A stretch of DNA of 37,500 bases, taken from positions 485,001 through 522,500 of the forward strand of contig JACVTC010000056.1 of the NCBI GenBank assembly GCA_016946835.1, given 5' to 3'. A program made the position numbers and the translations under genes. The DNA comes from Neocallimastix lanati (nom. inval.) (lineage: Eukaryota > Neocallimastigomycota > Neocallimastigomycetes > Neocallimastigales > Neocallimastigaceae). The stretch's first letter is position 1, and each line of letters opens with the position of its first letter. Positions 14,199 through 23,675 of this stretch are shown in pieces. The notes below the pieces were generated by a model. That model had not been told where the DNA came from, did no database searches, and worked only from the letters and a program-made list of their open reading frames with translations.

Positions 14199-16661
14199 TT
14201 TTGATTCTAATAATTAAAATTTTTTAGTAATATTGTTAATATTTTCATGTAATATAATATAATTTTATCTTTAAATTAATAATTTCATTTTTAATTTAAT
14301 TATATCAAAATTTTTAAATATAAATCAATAATACAATATTTTATATATAATTATAAATATATATTTACATTTTACAAATAAATTTTGAAAGAATAGTATA
14401 AAATAATATTTATAATTATATATAAACAAAATCTATTTTAATTTATGTATATCAAAAAATGTATATTAATTCTGCTTTGTTATATTATTATATTTTCAGT
14501 CTATAAAATTTTTGTATTTTATTTTTTATTTTTTTTTTATTTTTTTTTTTTAACAAAAAATATATAATTTTTTCTCAATTATATATTTTTTTCTTTGTTT
14601 TTAAAAACTTTTATAAGTTAAGTAAAACTAAAAATATAAAAACATAAACTTATTTATTTGAAAATTTTAGTTTTTAAAAATAAAAATTAAAAAAATTTTA
14701 ATTTTATTTTTAATTATAAATTTATATATAGATTGATATATAATATTTTTGTTATTAAATGAATATTAAAAAAAAAAAAAAAAAAAAAAGTAATTTTATA
14801 CTATTATTAAAAATATTATAAATTTAAATTTTTATTTTAAAACTTTATTAAATTGAAATTTGTTAATACTTATTTATTATTAAAATAATAAAATCTAAAT
14901 ATAAAAACAATTTTTAATTTTTGATAATTATTTAATTTAATAATAATATTAATCTTTTTGATTTTATTTTTAATAAAAATATAATAGTATTACTAATTAC
15001 TCTAATACATATTATATTTTATATAAAAATATTGAAAAATACAAAATATCCTTTTTAATAAAGTAAATCAAAAAACATTATTTTTTAATACATATGTAAA
15101 ATAATTAAAAAACATAAATATATAAATATTATTGTAAAGCCAATGATATTTTTTTTCTATTGACCAAGTGCTAATATTTTTTAAAAAAAAAATTCATCCG
15201 TATTATAATAAAATATAGAAATTTTAAATCTTGAATTTACATGAAGAATTGACTCTTTATATAAAATTTTAATTTTAATAAAATTTATTAGAATGAATTT
15301 TAATTAATAAATAATTGAAACTTTTTAGCGTCATCATATTATTGAATAAGATTTTATGTTTTATTTTATTTTATTTTTGTTTTTTCTATTATCAAAAATT
15401 ATCAAAAAATAAAAAAAGTTTAATTATAAATTTATATTACTCTTTAAAAATAAAATAATTTTTTTAAGGATTAAACTTTCAAATGTAATAATATTGCTAT
15501 ATAAAGATAAAAATTAATTAAGAAAAAGGAGAAAAATTTTTTTTTTTTTTTTTTTTTTTTTAAATATGGAAAATGTTTCATTTATGATATATTTTATTAT
15601 ATATGTATGTATTTTTTTTATATTTTAAATTTTTTAAATTACAGATAAAAATTTATTATTAATATTAATAATAAAATAGTAATAAAGATTAATAGTAATA
15701 AATAATAAATAATAAATAATAAATAATAAATAATAAATAATAAATAATAAATAATAAATAATAAATAATAAATAATAAATAATAAATAATAAATAATAAA
15801 TAATAATAAATAATAAATAATAAATAATAAATAATAAATAATAAATAATAAATAATAAATAATAAATAATAAATAATAAATAATAAATAATAAATAATAA
15901 ATAATAAATAATAAATAATAAATAATAAATAATAAATAATAAGTAATAAATAATAATAGAAATAAATAATAAATAATAATAGTAATAAATAATAATACAT
16001 TAATAAATAATAAATAATAGTAATAATATAATGTTATAATTGTGATTATAATACTAATAATAGAAATAATACTAACACTAATAAAACTAGTAATATTTGT
16101 AAATAATAATACTACTAATAATAATATTAGTATATAATTATAAAAATACTTGTACTACTACTACTATTACTAATAATAATAATAATAATAATGGCTATTA
16201 AATAAAAATAAATATAAATGATTAATAGTATTTTAAAAATAAACTTTAAACAAAAAAGAATAATTAAATAATCAATGTTGAGATAGTATTAATATTAATA
16301 TATATAAAATAATTGTTTTAATTTTTCTTTTATTCTTTATATTCTTTTATATACATATATATATATGTAATTAATGTAGCTTATTTTTTTTTTAAAAAAT
16401 TTTTTTATAAATTATTATTTGGACATATTTTGAATAAAATATTTATATTTTTATTTTAAAATCATAAATTAAAATATTATTAATAGTATAAATTAAGTTA
16501 TATAATTCTTAATTCATAAATTTTATAATTTTTATATATATATATATATGTAAAATTTAAATTGATTCTTTTTAAAATATAATAATTTCATTTTTTAATT
16601 TTTAATATTTAATAGCAAAAAAAAAAAAAAAAAAAAAAAAGAAAAAATAATAGTAATAACA
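14199..16661. promoter_or_regulatory. Divergent intergenic region between myosin heavy chain and light-chain-like gene
   Basis: 2463 bp separate two start codons that face away from each other, so both promoters must lie here. Composition is nearly all A/T with poly-A and poly-T runs (for example 14770-14789 and 15538-15560) and the satellite at 15696-15940. I see no coding frame, no RNA gene and no distinct transcription-factor motif that I can name. Confidence 0.6.
15696..15940. repeat. (TAATAAA)n heptanucleotide minisatellite, about 35 copies
   Basis: A regular 7-nt unit, TAATAAA, repeats with almost no divergence. There is one 3-nt phase slip near 15800, and the array decays into mixed AAT/AGT repeats to about 16020. 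Because 7 and 3 are coprime, the minus strand reads as an open frame with a YYLLFII period, but this is a by-product of the repeat and not a protein. Confidence 0.9.
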
Positions 16662-17843: not shown

Positions 17844-20800
17844 ATGAATATATTAAAAACAAAGAAGGTAGAAAATGATATAAAAAGGTAAATAATAATA
17901 GCTATTATGTTAATTTTATCTTATTTTTATAATAACAGATTTAAATATAATTATCGATATACCAATTTTGATATTTCTAATAGGAATAATAAAATTGAAT
18001 ATGAATATAAAAAAGATGTAAATACTATCAAAGTTCCAAAATATGGAATGGATAAAGAAATTTTTCAAGGACAAAAATTATTTAATACTTGTCTTGTAAT
18101 TTTTTAATAATAATAATAATAAAAAAAAATAAGAACTTATTAATATTATTATTTTTATTTTTAATCATTAAAAAAATAATTTTTTTTTTTAATTTTGTTT
18201 TTTATACATATTTTTATTTATTATAATATATAGGATCTAAATGAAAATTATTTAAAAAAAAATATTAAAAAATCATGGAATTTAATGTTAAATGGAATTG
18301 ATACCCCACTAGATGATTATGGTAATACTGCACTTCATTTAGCTACAATTCAAAATGATTATGAACTTGTATCATTACTTTTATTGAAAGGAGCAAATCC
18401 AAATGTACGAAATCAGGGAAATGTCAAGCCAAGAATGATTGCAAAAATAATGGAATATCCTGATATATATAAAATTTTATTAATGCATGAAAATGCAACA
18501 TATATGAACATAGTTTCAAATTATTCATCAAAAAATGAAGAAACACAAAATGAAAACAATAATACAAATAATAACAGTACAGTTAAGGGAAAATCTAAAA
18601 AACAAAAAGGAAATAAATTGCTTTTTTCTTTAAATTATGATGATATGGAAGGATTTAATATACCCACACAAATTTCCAATTCTCAAGTAGATGGAAAATC
18701 AAAGTCTAATAGAAGTAGTATTTCAAACAAGGTAAACCAAAATGAAAATTTTAACAATGAAAACAATTCAATATATACAAATTTCAGTAATAAGTATGAA
18801 CGACAAAAGAATTTTCAACATCATAAAAAATATTTTCCAAAGTATTATCTTACAGCTTTTAATATGGCTTATTTAGGAATTTATAAAGATAATATTTATT
18901 CTTTATTAGATTCTGATAAAATAGAAGAAGCTGATGAAAATGGAGCAACATCATTAATGAAAGCAAGTTATAATGGTCACCTTAAAATAGTTGAATATTT
19001 AATTGGAAAAAAGGCGAATGTTAATGCTGTGGATAAGTTAGGATACACCGCTTTAGTATGGGCTTCTTTAAAAGGTCATAGTAAAGTTTGTGAATGTTTA
19101 GTTAAAAATGGAGCAGATGTAAATAAAGTATATGGTCATGGAAAAGCACATGCTGTAATTACACCATTAATTGCAGCAGCATACAATGGATCAAAAGAAA
19201 CAGTTATTACATTAATAAATCTTGGTGCTAATATTAATAAAAAAGTTGGTCCAGGAAATACAACAGCATTAATTGTAGCAACCTTAAAATATAGATTTGA
19301 TGTAGTAAATGAATTATTAAAAAGAGATGCCGAATTTGATGAAGACATTTCATGGATTTCAGATGGTGCTTTCTTTATGAAAATTCTGGAAAAAAGTCAT
19401 AATCATTGGATGGTGGATGAAAATTTCATTGAAAGTATTTTAATGGATAATGGAAGTGCGGCTACTTCTATATTATCTGATTTAAAAGTTAAACAATCAA
19501 AAGAAATGTCAAAAAAAATAAATAATTATAGTAAAAAAGAAAAAAAAAATATTAAAGATATGCAGTCAATATATCAGCATTATATAATAAAATCTGAAAA
19601 TCCTGAAATGAAACATGTTATAAGTAGTTCAATAATTAAAAAGAATAACTCATCATTACTTTCAAATGAAAGCATATATATAGATAGAAATCAACAAATA
19701 AAAAATAAATATTCGTATATTGAAGTAATATAAAAATATATATTTATTTTTTTCTATATATATTAGATCTTTTAAATTACAATATTTTTTTTTTAATAGA
19801 GAAAATTATATAAATTTATTATAAAATAAAATAAAAAATATCTGGTTAAATTATAATTATATTGATAATGTTAATATTATCATTAATTAATACATTTATT
19901 TATGGTAAAAATATTATAATTTTAATTTTCAGGAAACTATTGGAAATTGCTATTTTTCACCAACAGTTCATGAATTAATTCAATTAATTCCTTTATATGG
20001 TACAGAACTTGATACAATGTGGTTTAATATTCTTCGGTGCGCTTTTCAACTTATTGAATTAGTAAATAAGAATGAAAAATCTCAATATATATATATATAC
20101 AAAAAAATAGAATATTATATAGGTATATTCACCAAAGAAGTATCAAAAGTTGTTGTGACATACAATGCTGAAAATAAAAAAGTAGTAAATAATTACTCAT
20201 TATTTAATAATACATTATTAATTGCAAAAATAAAAGATATGATAATAAGAGTTTCTGATAATGATTTACATAATTTTTATTATGGAACTATGCTTTCTCT
20301 TGGTTGTTTACCACCAATGAATGCATCACATGATATGGTAGATAAAATAATTGTTTTAGTTAAAGAAACTTTCTATCTAACTAAATTAGCTAATGCCACA
20401 GGATATTTCCCAAAAATAGATACAGAACTAACTGTAAATTTAAAAATAATAATTTAATTAATTAATTAATTATATTTTAGAAATATAGTTATTAAAATTT
20501 TTTTTTTTTTTAAAAAAAATAATTATATGAATAGTTTGATTATAAAATTGAAGAAAACTTTGAAAATGAAAATGTTACTGATTTCCAAACATATCAACAA
20601 TTAAATAACTTAAAAAATTATGGAAAGAATATTAATTCAAAGAAGAATGAATTAGCATTATCAGTTGAAGACTTTAACACTGAGAGTGATGATAATCAAC
20701 TTGAATTTAGTAAATTAATTGATGATCATATTTATCATATTGAAAGTGCTTCTAATGAATTGTTTCAATCATTTATGCATTCAAATCAAAGTATTAGTAA

Positions 20801-23675
20801 GATAATTAATAATATTAGAGAAAAAATTGATATATTGATATATGATATTAAAAATAATAAGTATTTGAATAATTATTCTGAAAAAGAAATATTTTCACAA
20901 GAAGATATAAATATTATAATTATACAAACAAAGAATATTACTGAAGAAGGAATTGAATTTTTAAAGAAATGTGTAAAAATCCCATTAAAAGATATTTTTA
21001 GTATACAAATAAATGAAATTAAGGACCAAGAAGAGAAAATAGATAATCTATTTATAAATAAAAATTCAAATGAAAATGAACAAATATTTGATGATGAACA
21101 AATACGTGGTGATTTAATTAATATATTATCACCATGTATGATAAAAATAAAATTAATGGGACTTATCACTAAAAAAGCATCAGAAAAAATACAAAAAATG
21201 GTTAATAAATCAAAACAAAAGAATTTTGGTCAACAAAGAAAAGGATTCAGATTTATTGGAAAGAGTTCTAAAAAAGTATATTAATATCACTTTAAATTAA
21301 AATAATAATAATAATATTATTATATATATTAATTTATATTTTTTAAACTTTTTATTAAATGATTCTTTAGGCTAATGGTTCCAACTTAGATATATCAAAT
21401 GATAAAAGTAAAGAGTTACTTAGAGAAGATCTAACTGATCTAATATATGAACGTCCAGAAAATTCTACAAAATTGGTCATTAAAGGAGGAAAACTTATGA
21501 AATTAATTGAATGCTTAACATGGCCAAATGGTATTTATCATTATTGTAAATAATACATTAATACAAAAATTATAATATTAATAAAATATATTAATAAATA
21601 TTTATAGATGAAAAATTTTTTATTGTTAATGGATTTAATATTGATGAACATTTTGAAGATGATTTTATAATGACTCATCATTCTTTAGATTCATCAGAAT
21701 CTCTTTATAAAAAATTAACAAATAGATATCCTTTTTATACTATTTATTATATAAATTAATTATATATATATAAATTGAAAAATATTATTGAAACATAAAA
21801 AGTCATTATTCCTATAAAAAAAAAACATATGAAAATCTTCAACCACCTTCAAATATTGATATTGATAATGTTGATGAATTTGAACTCTATAAAAATGAAA
21901 AAATAATTCCTACTAAAATACGGTAAAAATCATTTAATATAATTATAATATTATATCTTAATAAAAATTATAATTAATATTATAAATTTAAATAAAAGTA
22001 TTCTTAATATAATAGATAAATGGATTAAAACATATAAAGATGAGGATATTTGTTTGAATGATAAATTAATTGAACAATATTATAGTTTTGCATACGAAGC
22101 TAGTAAAGATGAATTAAAACCATATAAAAATAAATTAACATTTACAGATAATACGGTAATTGTTAAAATTTTAAAACTATGGAAAATTAGTTATTGAAAT
22201 TAATATCTTTTATTGATATATTTATGTTTGTATATATATATATATATATATTTAAAAGAGTCCTCCAAAGATAAAGAATGATATTATAAGTGTATCAAAT
22301 GAAGAACCACTTCTTCCAAAACACATAACTATGAATGAATTAAGTAAATTAGATAATTTATTGAAAAATGATAGTAATTATATATTTTTAATTCCGGAAA
22401 AAGAATTTGCAAAACAATTAACATTAATTGAAAGTAAATATTATAAGTTGGTTACTGGAACTGAATGCCTTGATCAGATATGGGGATCAAAAAGACAAAA
22501 GGAAATTGATAGTTATAATAAAAGCAAAGATAATAAAAATAATAAGAATAATAATGATAATAAAAACAAGGACCAAAAGAATAATTCTAGCAGTGAACTT
22601 ATAGAATATCCTAATGTCACTAGAATGATTAAGCATACAAATACAGTAAGCATTTAAAATTTAATTATTAAATATTTATTTACGCACTAATATTATATTT
22701 ATTAACCATTTGTTGTTTATTTTTAAAGCTAACAACATGGGTTGCAAGTTGTATATTAAATTCTGAAGTTTTAAAGGATAGAGAAAAGACATTAAGATAC
22801 TTTACTCAGCTTGCTTATGTTTGTATTAATTATTTTAATAGACATTTAAAAAAAGTTAATATTAAAATATTTAAATAATTATAGGAATGTTATAAAATTA
22901 ATAACTTTAATGGTGCTACAGCAGTCGTTGCAGGTTTGTCCATGGGTCCTGTATTTCGTTTACATAAAACATGGAGAGTAAATAAATACTTTTTCTTCTT
23001 TATATAATATAAAAATTTTTATATATTTATTTTAAATCTAATTGTATTTATAAAATTGTTTCTAATCATATAGGAATTTAGAGATAAAAATAAATTATTA
23101 AATGAAAATTATACATTAGTTTCTGATATAGTAAGTCCTAAAGGTCAATATTCTAATTATAGAAAGAAACTTAAAGAACTGGATGATAAAAATGAAGCAA
23201 TTATGCCATTCTTAGGTAATTTCAATAATTATAAAATAGTATTTTTTATAATTATTATCATTATTTATTTATTTATTTATTTATTATTATATTTCATTAA
23301 TTTTCTTAATAATAATATTGGTAAAAAATTAATAAGTCATTGACTTTTTTTTTTTTTTTTTTTTGAAATTAATTTTTAATTGTAGGTGTATATTTTACTG
23401 ATTTAACGTTTGTAGAACTAGGAAATAATGATTATTTAGATAAAAATAGTAATTTAAATTTTGAAAAAAGAAGAAAAGCAGCAAGAATTATTAATGAAAT
23501 TAAACATTATCAAAAAAAAACATTTACGTTTAAACCAGTAGATCCTATTATAGATTTTATTGAAAATTTAGAGAATAATGAAAATCAACCTAAATATAGT
23601 GAGGATGATTTATATGATAAGTCATTAATGTATGAACCAAGAGAAGAAGAGGATGACGATGACGAAGAGGAATAA
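17844..23675 (+). CDS. Ankyrin-repeat RasGEF (RasGEF-N plus CDC25 domain), 14 exons, 1488 aa
   Basis: Exons: 17844-17887, 17939-18095, 18234-19724, 19933-20433, 20535-21275, 21371-21530, 21608-21725, 21827-21922, 21999-22155, 22259-22645, 22729-22818, 22885-22977, 23074-23215, 23386-23675. The sum is 4467 nt, in frame throughout. Ankyrin repeats occur at about 91-145 (DDYGNTALHLA) and 274-434 (NGATSLMKASYNGH and repeats). About 565-978 is helical and unassigned. RasGEF-N spans about 1013-1155 (LVIKGGKLMKLIECLT, later KIIPTKIRILNIIDKW). The catalytic RasGEF covers about 1184-1440, with EKEFAKQLTLIESKYYKL, TTWVASCIL, NFNGATAVVAGLS and FLGVYFTDLTF. The tail is acidic. It should load GTP onto a Ras-family GTPase, with the ankyrin repeats choosing a partner or site. 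The intron 21726-21826 is AT-AC, and the others are GT-AG. Which GTPase it acts on cannot be told. Confidence 0.92.
21726..21826 (+). other. AT-AC intron with U12-type splice signals
   Basis: The intron begins ATATCCTTTTT, an exact match to the minor-spliceosome 5' splice consensus RTATCCTTT, and ends in AAAAAC. A branch-site-like TTCCTATAA (21809-21817; consensus TTCCTTRAY) lies about 10 nt from the 3' end. No GT occurs between the exon end and the in-frame stop, so a standard donor cannot serve here. Removing 21726-21826 joins AG to ATATGAA and restores LYKKLTNRYENLQPP, the expected continuation of the RasGEF-N domain. Confidence 0.8.

Follow-up and report, generated by a model that had tools for sequence, protein, structure and literature searches.

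An AT-AC minor-class intron in a gut-fungal RasGEF gene and a U6atac with a changed intron-pairing element

How is an intron that begins with AT and ends with AC removed exactly from a gut-fungal transcript, when the U6atac genes found in the same genome carry a changed version of the element that pairs with the 5' splice site? The question is raised by a RasGEF gene at 18234-23675 of the window, by which we mean the whole 37,500-nt stretch of DNA analysed here (G+C content 19.4%, from a 199-Mb assembly). The gene model comprises 12 exons with an open 5' end, separated by ten GT-AG introns and a single AT-AC intron of 101 nt in phase 2, which runs ATATCCTTTTT...AC (Table 1). As an overall explanation, we consider it very probable that this intron belongs to the U12-type AT-AC class, lies in an expressed gene of an anaerobic gut fungus akin to Neocallimastix, and is removed by the minor spliceosome with a partial U6atac helix.

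Table 1. Features of the RasGEF gene and its AT-AC intron (window positions) and the two U6atac genes (contig positions in genome G000).
Feature	Position	Strand	Evidence
Exon 1, ankyrin-repeat-like part (our label), 5' end open	18234..19724	+	gene model
Exon 2	19933..20433	+	gene model
Exon 3; protein P0001 starts inside at 20835	20535..21275	+	gene model, P0001
Exon 4, RasGEF_N begins	21371..21530	+	gene model, profile match
Exon 5, ends ...LYKKLTN(R), phase 2	21608..21725	+	gene model, profile match
AT-AC minor-class intron	21726..21826	+	direct window reading, gene model; absent from protein P0001
5' splice site ATATCCTTTTT	21726..21736	+	complementarity to U11 start
Branch-point-like TTCCTATAA	21809..21817	+	3 mismatches to TTCCTTRAY
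3' splice site AC	21825..21826	+	first AC downstream of branch-like element
Exon 6, starts (R)YENLQPP	21827..21922	+	gene model
Exon 7	21999..22155	+	gene model
Exon 8, RasGEF catalytic domain begins	22259..22645	+	gene model, profile match
Exon 9	22729..22818	+	gene model
Exon 10	22885..22977	+	gene model
Exon 11	23074..23215	+	gene model
Exon 12 through stop codon	23386..23675	+	gene model
U6atac gene (L003)	C246:1236632-1236780	-	Rfam match
U6atac gene (L004)	C588:485025-485170	+	Rfam match

Exon 5 terminates in ...AAATTAACAAATAG at 21725 and the next letters are ATATCCTTTTTATAC, while the intron closes in ...TTCCTATAAAAAAAAAAC at 21826, with ...AAAAAAAAAAC as its terminal letters. The AT-AC signals read in the initial annotation therefore stand: ATATCCTTTTT conforms to the RTATCCTTT 5'-splice-site consensus, the ends are AT...AC, and ATAT at both borders leaves the junction ambiguous by at most four bases, with an identical protein product. 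The claimed lack of a GT donor is likewise borne out, as 21608-21826 holds only two GT (21625, within the exon, and 21802, within the intron) and no GC dinucleotide, so that no usable major-class donor is available at the exon end. The window holds four copies of RTATCCTTTT where 0.88 are expected, the other three being intergenic or opposite the coding strand when read by eye. A branch-like element had also been placed about 10 nt before the intron end; TTCCTATAA does lie there, nine bases from the end, but it departs from TTCCTTRAY at 3/9 positions, and the window shows no enrichment of TTCCTTRAY (3 observed vs 2.72 expected), so that the element alone is weak evidence. In its ATATCCTTT start and AC end, in standing as one among many GT-AG introns, and in the U11, U12, U4atac and U6atac matches of its genome, the intron resembles the U12-type AT-AC introns known from animals, plants and fungi of early-branching lineages, Neocallimastigomycetes among them, from which it differs in the weak branch element. 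It is a real intron and an ordinary member of its class.

The evidence for exact removal comes from a search of 5.8 billion proteins. The full sequence of P0001, a JGI protein of 657 aa whose longest source contig measures 2,139 nt, matches residues 765-1421 of the spliced model without a difference and contains LYKKLTNRYENLQPP across the junction. Its residues span 2,838 nt of the genome (20835-23672) with nine introns, more than fits on a contig no longer than 2,139 nt, so P0001 should derive from RNA and not from this genomic DNA, a conclusion drawn from the lengths for which we see no other reading. Through this protein, whose RNA origin follows from length, the intron is shown to be removed exactly from the RNA. 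Two related JGI proteins, P0002 and P0007 (contigs of 2,034 and 952 nt), pass through the junction without an insert, as do three named chytrid proteins at the same position. That removal restores the frame and the RasGEF-N domain, as first proposed, is confirmed by the joining of KLTNR to YENLQPP and by profile matches of the spliced protein to RasGEF_N (46.2 bits, cut-off 28.3) and RasGEF (165.7 bits), which make it a RasGEF protein with both domains; the version read through to the first stop in the intron reaches 25.5 bits for RasGEF_N, under the cut-off.

Exons 1 and 2 are apparently linked to the rest of the gene by reading frame only, the RNA-derived P0001 starting in exon 3. Within 18234-23675, an N-terminal part that we take from its sequence to be ankyrin-repeat-like apparently belongs to the same gene as the RasGEF part. 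Upstream in the window, a long simple-repeat stretch (15634-16154) is open in several minus-strand frames, and Rfam scans of the window returned zero matches.

Searches of the whole genome with Rfam models gave U12 at 56.8 bits (gathering threshold 53), U11 at 40.5 bits (39) and two U6atac genes at 57.4 and 56.4 bits (33), together with U4atac at 47.2 bits, under its gathering threshold of 53; none of the four families matched in 14 control genomes. The genome search for four minor snRNAs suggested in the initial annotation thus succeeded for three and fell short of the threshold for U4atac. Two minor-specific protein families were searched, and both matched above their curated cut-offs: CCDC84/CENATAC (PF14968) in two collinear exons on contig C13 that score 32.4 and 28.2 bits (cut-off 25.3), lie some 1.8 kb from each other and read CEICNRNQIKNKRHIYSKKHRERL and NWMPNFGGIWNLGPRS, and Ubiquitin_4 (PF18036), presumably the SNRNP25 domain, in one exon on contig C257 (36.2 bits, cut-off 22.8). 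CENATAC is the human factor for AT-AN minor introns (PMC8280824). The Rfam matches support the presence of minor snRNAs in the genome and, with the protein matches, point, as had been proposed, to a minor-spliceosome machinery in the lineage. Minor introns and minor snRNAs have been reported in Neocallimastigomycetes (Larue and Roy 2023, PMC10639083), which settles the earlier question of whether minor splicing had been described for the lineage and means that the existence of the system there is not new. In that study snRNA presence was scored by Infernal E-value, and in its accessible parts no remark on the U6atac sequence of Neocallimastigomycetes was found (PMC10639083).

Recognition of the intron start by U11 is supported by seven complementary bases: AAAAAGGGCTTATG, 134 nt upstream of where the Rfam hit starts, looks like a canonical U11 5' end, and with the 5' end placed there the first seven bases of U11, AAAAAGG, are complementary to CCTTTTT of the intron. 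On this placement U11 is unchanged. The predicted pairing of this U11 with ATATCCTTTTT amounts to -6.0 kcal/mol. At the U11 locus itself (about 1367 of L002, a piece of contig C50), the Rfam match seems to misplace the 5' end, and the U11 is long, 268 nt by the borders chosen. An unconstrained fold from AAAAAGGGCTTATG is multi-branched, with GCTTA paired right before the Sm-like site (read by eye), though the first five A are likewise paired in it, with the U-run of the Sm site.

U6atac departs from its family at the element that faces the intron. The Rfam consensus GUAUGAAAGGAGAGAAGGUUAGCA reads GUAUGAGCCGAGAGACAGUUGGCA in 2/2 genes found, with AGCCGA at positions 11-16 vs the consensus AAAGGA, that is, GCC instead of AAG at 12-14, with positions 15 and 16 kept. 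Both copies lie in one shared 1.2-kb stretch on two contigs, 96.6% identical, and are therefore not independent witnesses; a pattern search of the genome found no canonical AAGGAGAGANNNTTAGCA, a loose U6atac pattern retrieved these two genes only, and a U6atac pattern gave 0 matches in viral contigs. Complementarity of the element to the 5' splice site over +4 to +9 is incomplete: U4-A16 and C5-G15 are kept, while C6 faces C14, U7 faces C13 and U8 faces G12. The predicted duplex of the genome's own U6atac with the intron start stands at -2.8 kcal/mol over 11 nt (ATATCCTTTTT) and -5.0 kcal/mol over 15 nt, against -7.1 and -9.5 kcal/mol for the consensus U6atac, and a hypothetical intron start ATATCGGCTTT would pair with the own U6atac at a predicted -11.1 kcal/mol. 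The mismatch at +6 and +7 argues against the textbook catalytic core.

In other respects the two genes resemble the U6atac family (RF00619), sharing its conserved 5' end, GAGAGA core, 3' T-run and U4atac complementarity; they differ from it in AGCCGA for AAAGGA, in UUGGCA for UUAGCA and in a predicted hairpin. Eleven bases of the segment AGATAAGGACG are complementary to the 5' end of U4atac (CGTCCTTATCT), and the change of UAGCA to UGGCA is matched in U4atac by UGCCA (consensus UGCUA; compared by eye), while UGCC of U12 can pair fully with GGCA of U6atac. Judged from the genes, the kept complementarity and the matching changes are signs of a co-evolved and probably working U6atac. Position 26, which we take to lie in the catalytic triad, carries G for A (UUGGCA vs UUAGCA), and the changed stretch can pair with both UGCC of U12 and UGCCA of U4atac. 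In an unconstrained cofold, the best structure pairs U6atac 12-16 with its own 24-28 and not with U4atac, and positions 10-30 alone are predicted to form a 5-bp hairpin (one G-U pair, -6.0 kcal/mol) that joins both changed places. The consensus U6atac does not form this hairpin (0.0 kcal/mol for 10-30, and a different weak fold at -2.3 kcal/mol for 1-30). For random letters at the four changed positions, the chance of three new hairpin pairs ranges from 0.3% (AT-rich) to 1.6% (even), a figure that concerns a feature noticed post hoc.

In mammalian cells, pairing of U6atac with the intron start is needed: the intron change CC5/6GG stops U12 splicing, U11 GG6/7CC alone gives no rescue, U6atac GG14/15CC alone gives partial rescue, and the two together nearly full rescue (PMC4980772). 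The gut-fungal U6atac is like the GG14/15CC suppressor of that work (PMC4980772) in that position 14, within the element for pairing with the 5' splice site, is C, but its natural change covers 12-14 with G15 kept, and, whereas the laboratory suppressor pairs with a changed intron start, the gut-fungus starts found are standard.

Whether other minor introns in the genome follow the changed U6atac was approached by pattern searches. A first pattern with short spacing yielded 19 rows, with one AT-rich row set aside, and none of the 19 was accepted as an intron by eye. The pattern TATCCTTTN{60,90}TCCTTRAY gave 62 matches vs 32 in a control; 42 of them were examined (41 distinct), 30 by automated listing and 11 by eye, and the latter comprised six accepted AT-AC introns, one GT-AG intron and four candidates rejected as introns (L033, L034, L066 and L072). 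The six lie in genes whose names are partly our own assignments, namely eIF2A (L070), TTLL9 (L074), Spc24 (L053), a WDR19-like gene (L065), an SFSWAP-like gene (L047) and an unnamed gene (L069). All start ATATCCTTT and join open frames, with 3' borders chosen to keep the frame; they were found by their TATCCTTT and so cannot alone show that CC is the sole form.

Support for the joins differs among the six. In four genes (eIF2A, TTLL9, Spc24 and the WDR19-like gene) a Pfam match extends across the join; in the SFSWAP-like splicing regulator (Pfam DRY_EERY) no Pfam match covers the join, and the unnamed gene has no Pfam match. Support from outside proteins covers 2/6 introns: the predicted eIF2A join SPHSRIICIAGF is present in the Anaeromyces protein P0018, and the TTLL9 join EAAKFDFISTSF in the Neocallimastix lanati protein P0138 and the JGI protein P0137. 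For TTLL9, identity reaches 96% with a protein of Neocallimastix lanati and 93% with one of Anaeromyces robustus, from which we take the genome to be that of a neocallimastigomycete close to Neocallimastix, though probably not N. lanati itself. Five of the introns have a TCCTTRA nearby, and in these the AC at the chosen 3' border is the first one after the motif, 13, 18, 31, 34 and 35 nt downstream; the usual distance from branch to 3' end in U12-type introns is 10-20 nt. In the WDR19-like IFT gene 89 nt separate the TCCTTAAC motif from the end of the intron, and the motif is perhaps not the branch site. The GT-AG intron (L049, minus strand from 1500), in a gene that we take to encode a TRM9/ALKBH8-like methyltransferase, starts GTATCCTTTTCG, ends AG and has TTCCTTAAT about 50 nt from its end; it may be U12-type or U2-type.

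A search for starts in TATCGGC with a spacing of 40-70 gave 6 matches, coding-like by eye, vs 3 in the backward control. With +6 to +8 left free, 41 matches were obtained, a total that is itself meaningless in view of 101 in the backward control; CCT occupied these positions in 4, three of them accepted introns and one coding-like, and GGC in 0, 37 matches carrying other letters and context being read for the 4 with CCT. The binomial probability of 4/41 CCT is 2.3e-5 at genome composition and 0.0015 at an assumed coding-like composition, some rows being repeat copies. Minor introns that follow the changed U6atac are thus not supported, no sign of them having been seen, and introns with another start are possible.

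From the snRNA genes and base complementarity, a course of splicing may be proposed in which U11 would pair with the intron's CCTTTTT and U12 with the weak branch site, for which the best predicted pairing is -6.1 kcal/mol vs -8.0 kcal/mol for TTCCTTAAC in a plain T context. U4atac/U6atac and U5 would then complete the minor spliceosome, and U6atac would replace U11, forming only part of the usual U6atac-intron helix because its genes carry GCC at 12-14 instead of AAG. Accuracy may then come from fewer pairs being enough or from proteins holding the site, or a canonical U6atac may have been missed.

Several other readings have to be weighed against this course. Retention of the segment or a sequencing error was rejected on account of P0001, which matches the spliced model exactly and comes from a contig too short for genomic origin; with relatives that lack the insert as well, the probability of error, pseudogene or retention is next to negligible. 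Removal by the major (U2) spliceosome is highly improbable, for although some AT-AC introns are U2-dependent (PMC7072748) and the branch element of this one is weak, its full U12-type 5' splice site with seven bases complementary to U11 and the minor snRNAs apparently present in the genome speak against it. Where the U6atac genes are concerned, two cases are conceivable: the mismatch is tolerated in gut fungi, or the searches have missed a second U6atac. We regard it as unlikely that a canonical U6atac was missed or left unassembled, the two AGCCGA copies being non-functional duplicates. These copies are known from genes alone, may stem from one duplication or represent two haplotypes and count as one witness, and 46 of 4700 first-look candidates were scored; against this stand the outcomes of the loose and canonical patterns, the retained 11-base U4atac complementarity and the matched UGGCA/UGCCA change.

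If the mismatch is tolerated, the change may be nearly neutral, with U4-A16 and C5-G15 sufficing together with a few wobble or distal pairs and the mechanism otherwise the same, a reading that we find rather doubtful. Positions 15 and 16 and a residual predicted duplex over both lengths agree with it, whereas the stronger duplexes of the consensus U6atac do not, nor does the mammalian CC5/6GG change, which breaks U11 and U6atac pairing together with splicing (PMC4980772). Tentatively, and with a little less than even confidence, we suggest that in this lineage the two readings of the intron start have become uncoupled: U11 would still read the standard ATATCCTTTTT, U6atac would no longer provide the second reading and would fold its GCCGA onto UUGGC in its own catalytic region, and fewer pairs or protein would hold the catalytic stage.

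In full-text literature searches, with most subscription journals outside coverage, U6atac together with Neocallimastix occurred in PMC10639083 only, and no paper matched the exact terms that combine minor splicing with either Neocallimastigomycota or anaerobic gut fungi. As far as these searches reach, a natural mismatch of this kind, between the intron start and U6atac, is unreported and forms the new point here. A practical consequence is that AT-AC introns can mislead gene models, as in eIF2A of Piromyces finnis and Piromyces sp. E2: the Piromyces finnis paralogue keeps extra residues, DILLILIFYILNKYKNMF, where the minor intron would lie, in the Piromyces sp. E2 model the preceding exon is absent, and the public gut-fungal models P0020 and P0017 look wrong there. 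For the minor spliceosome, a changed U6atac alongside unchanged introns would provide a natural test of the need for pairing and of the source of accuracy.
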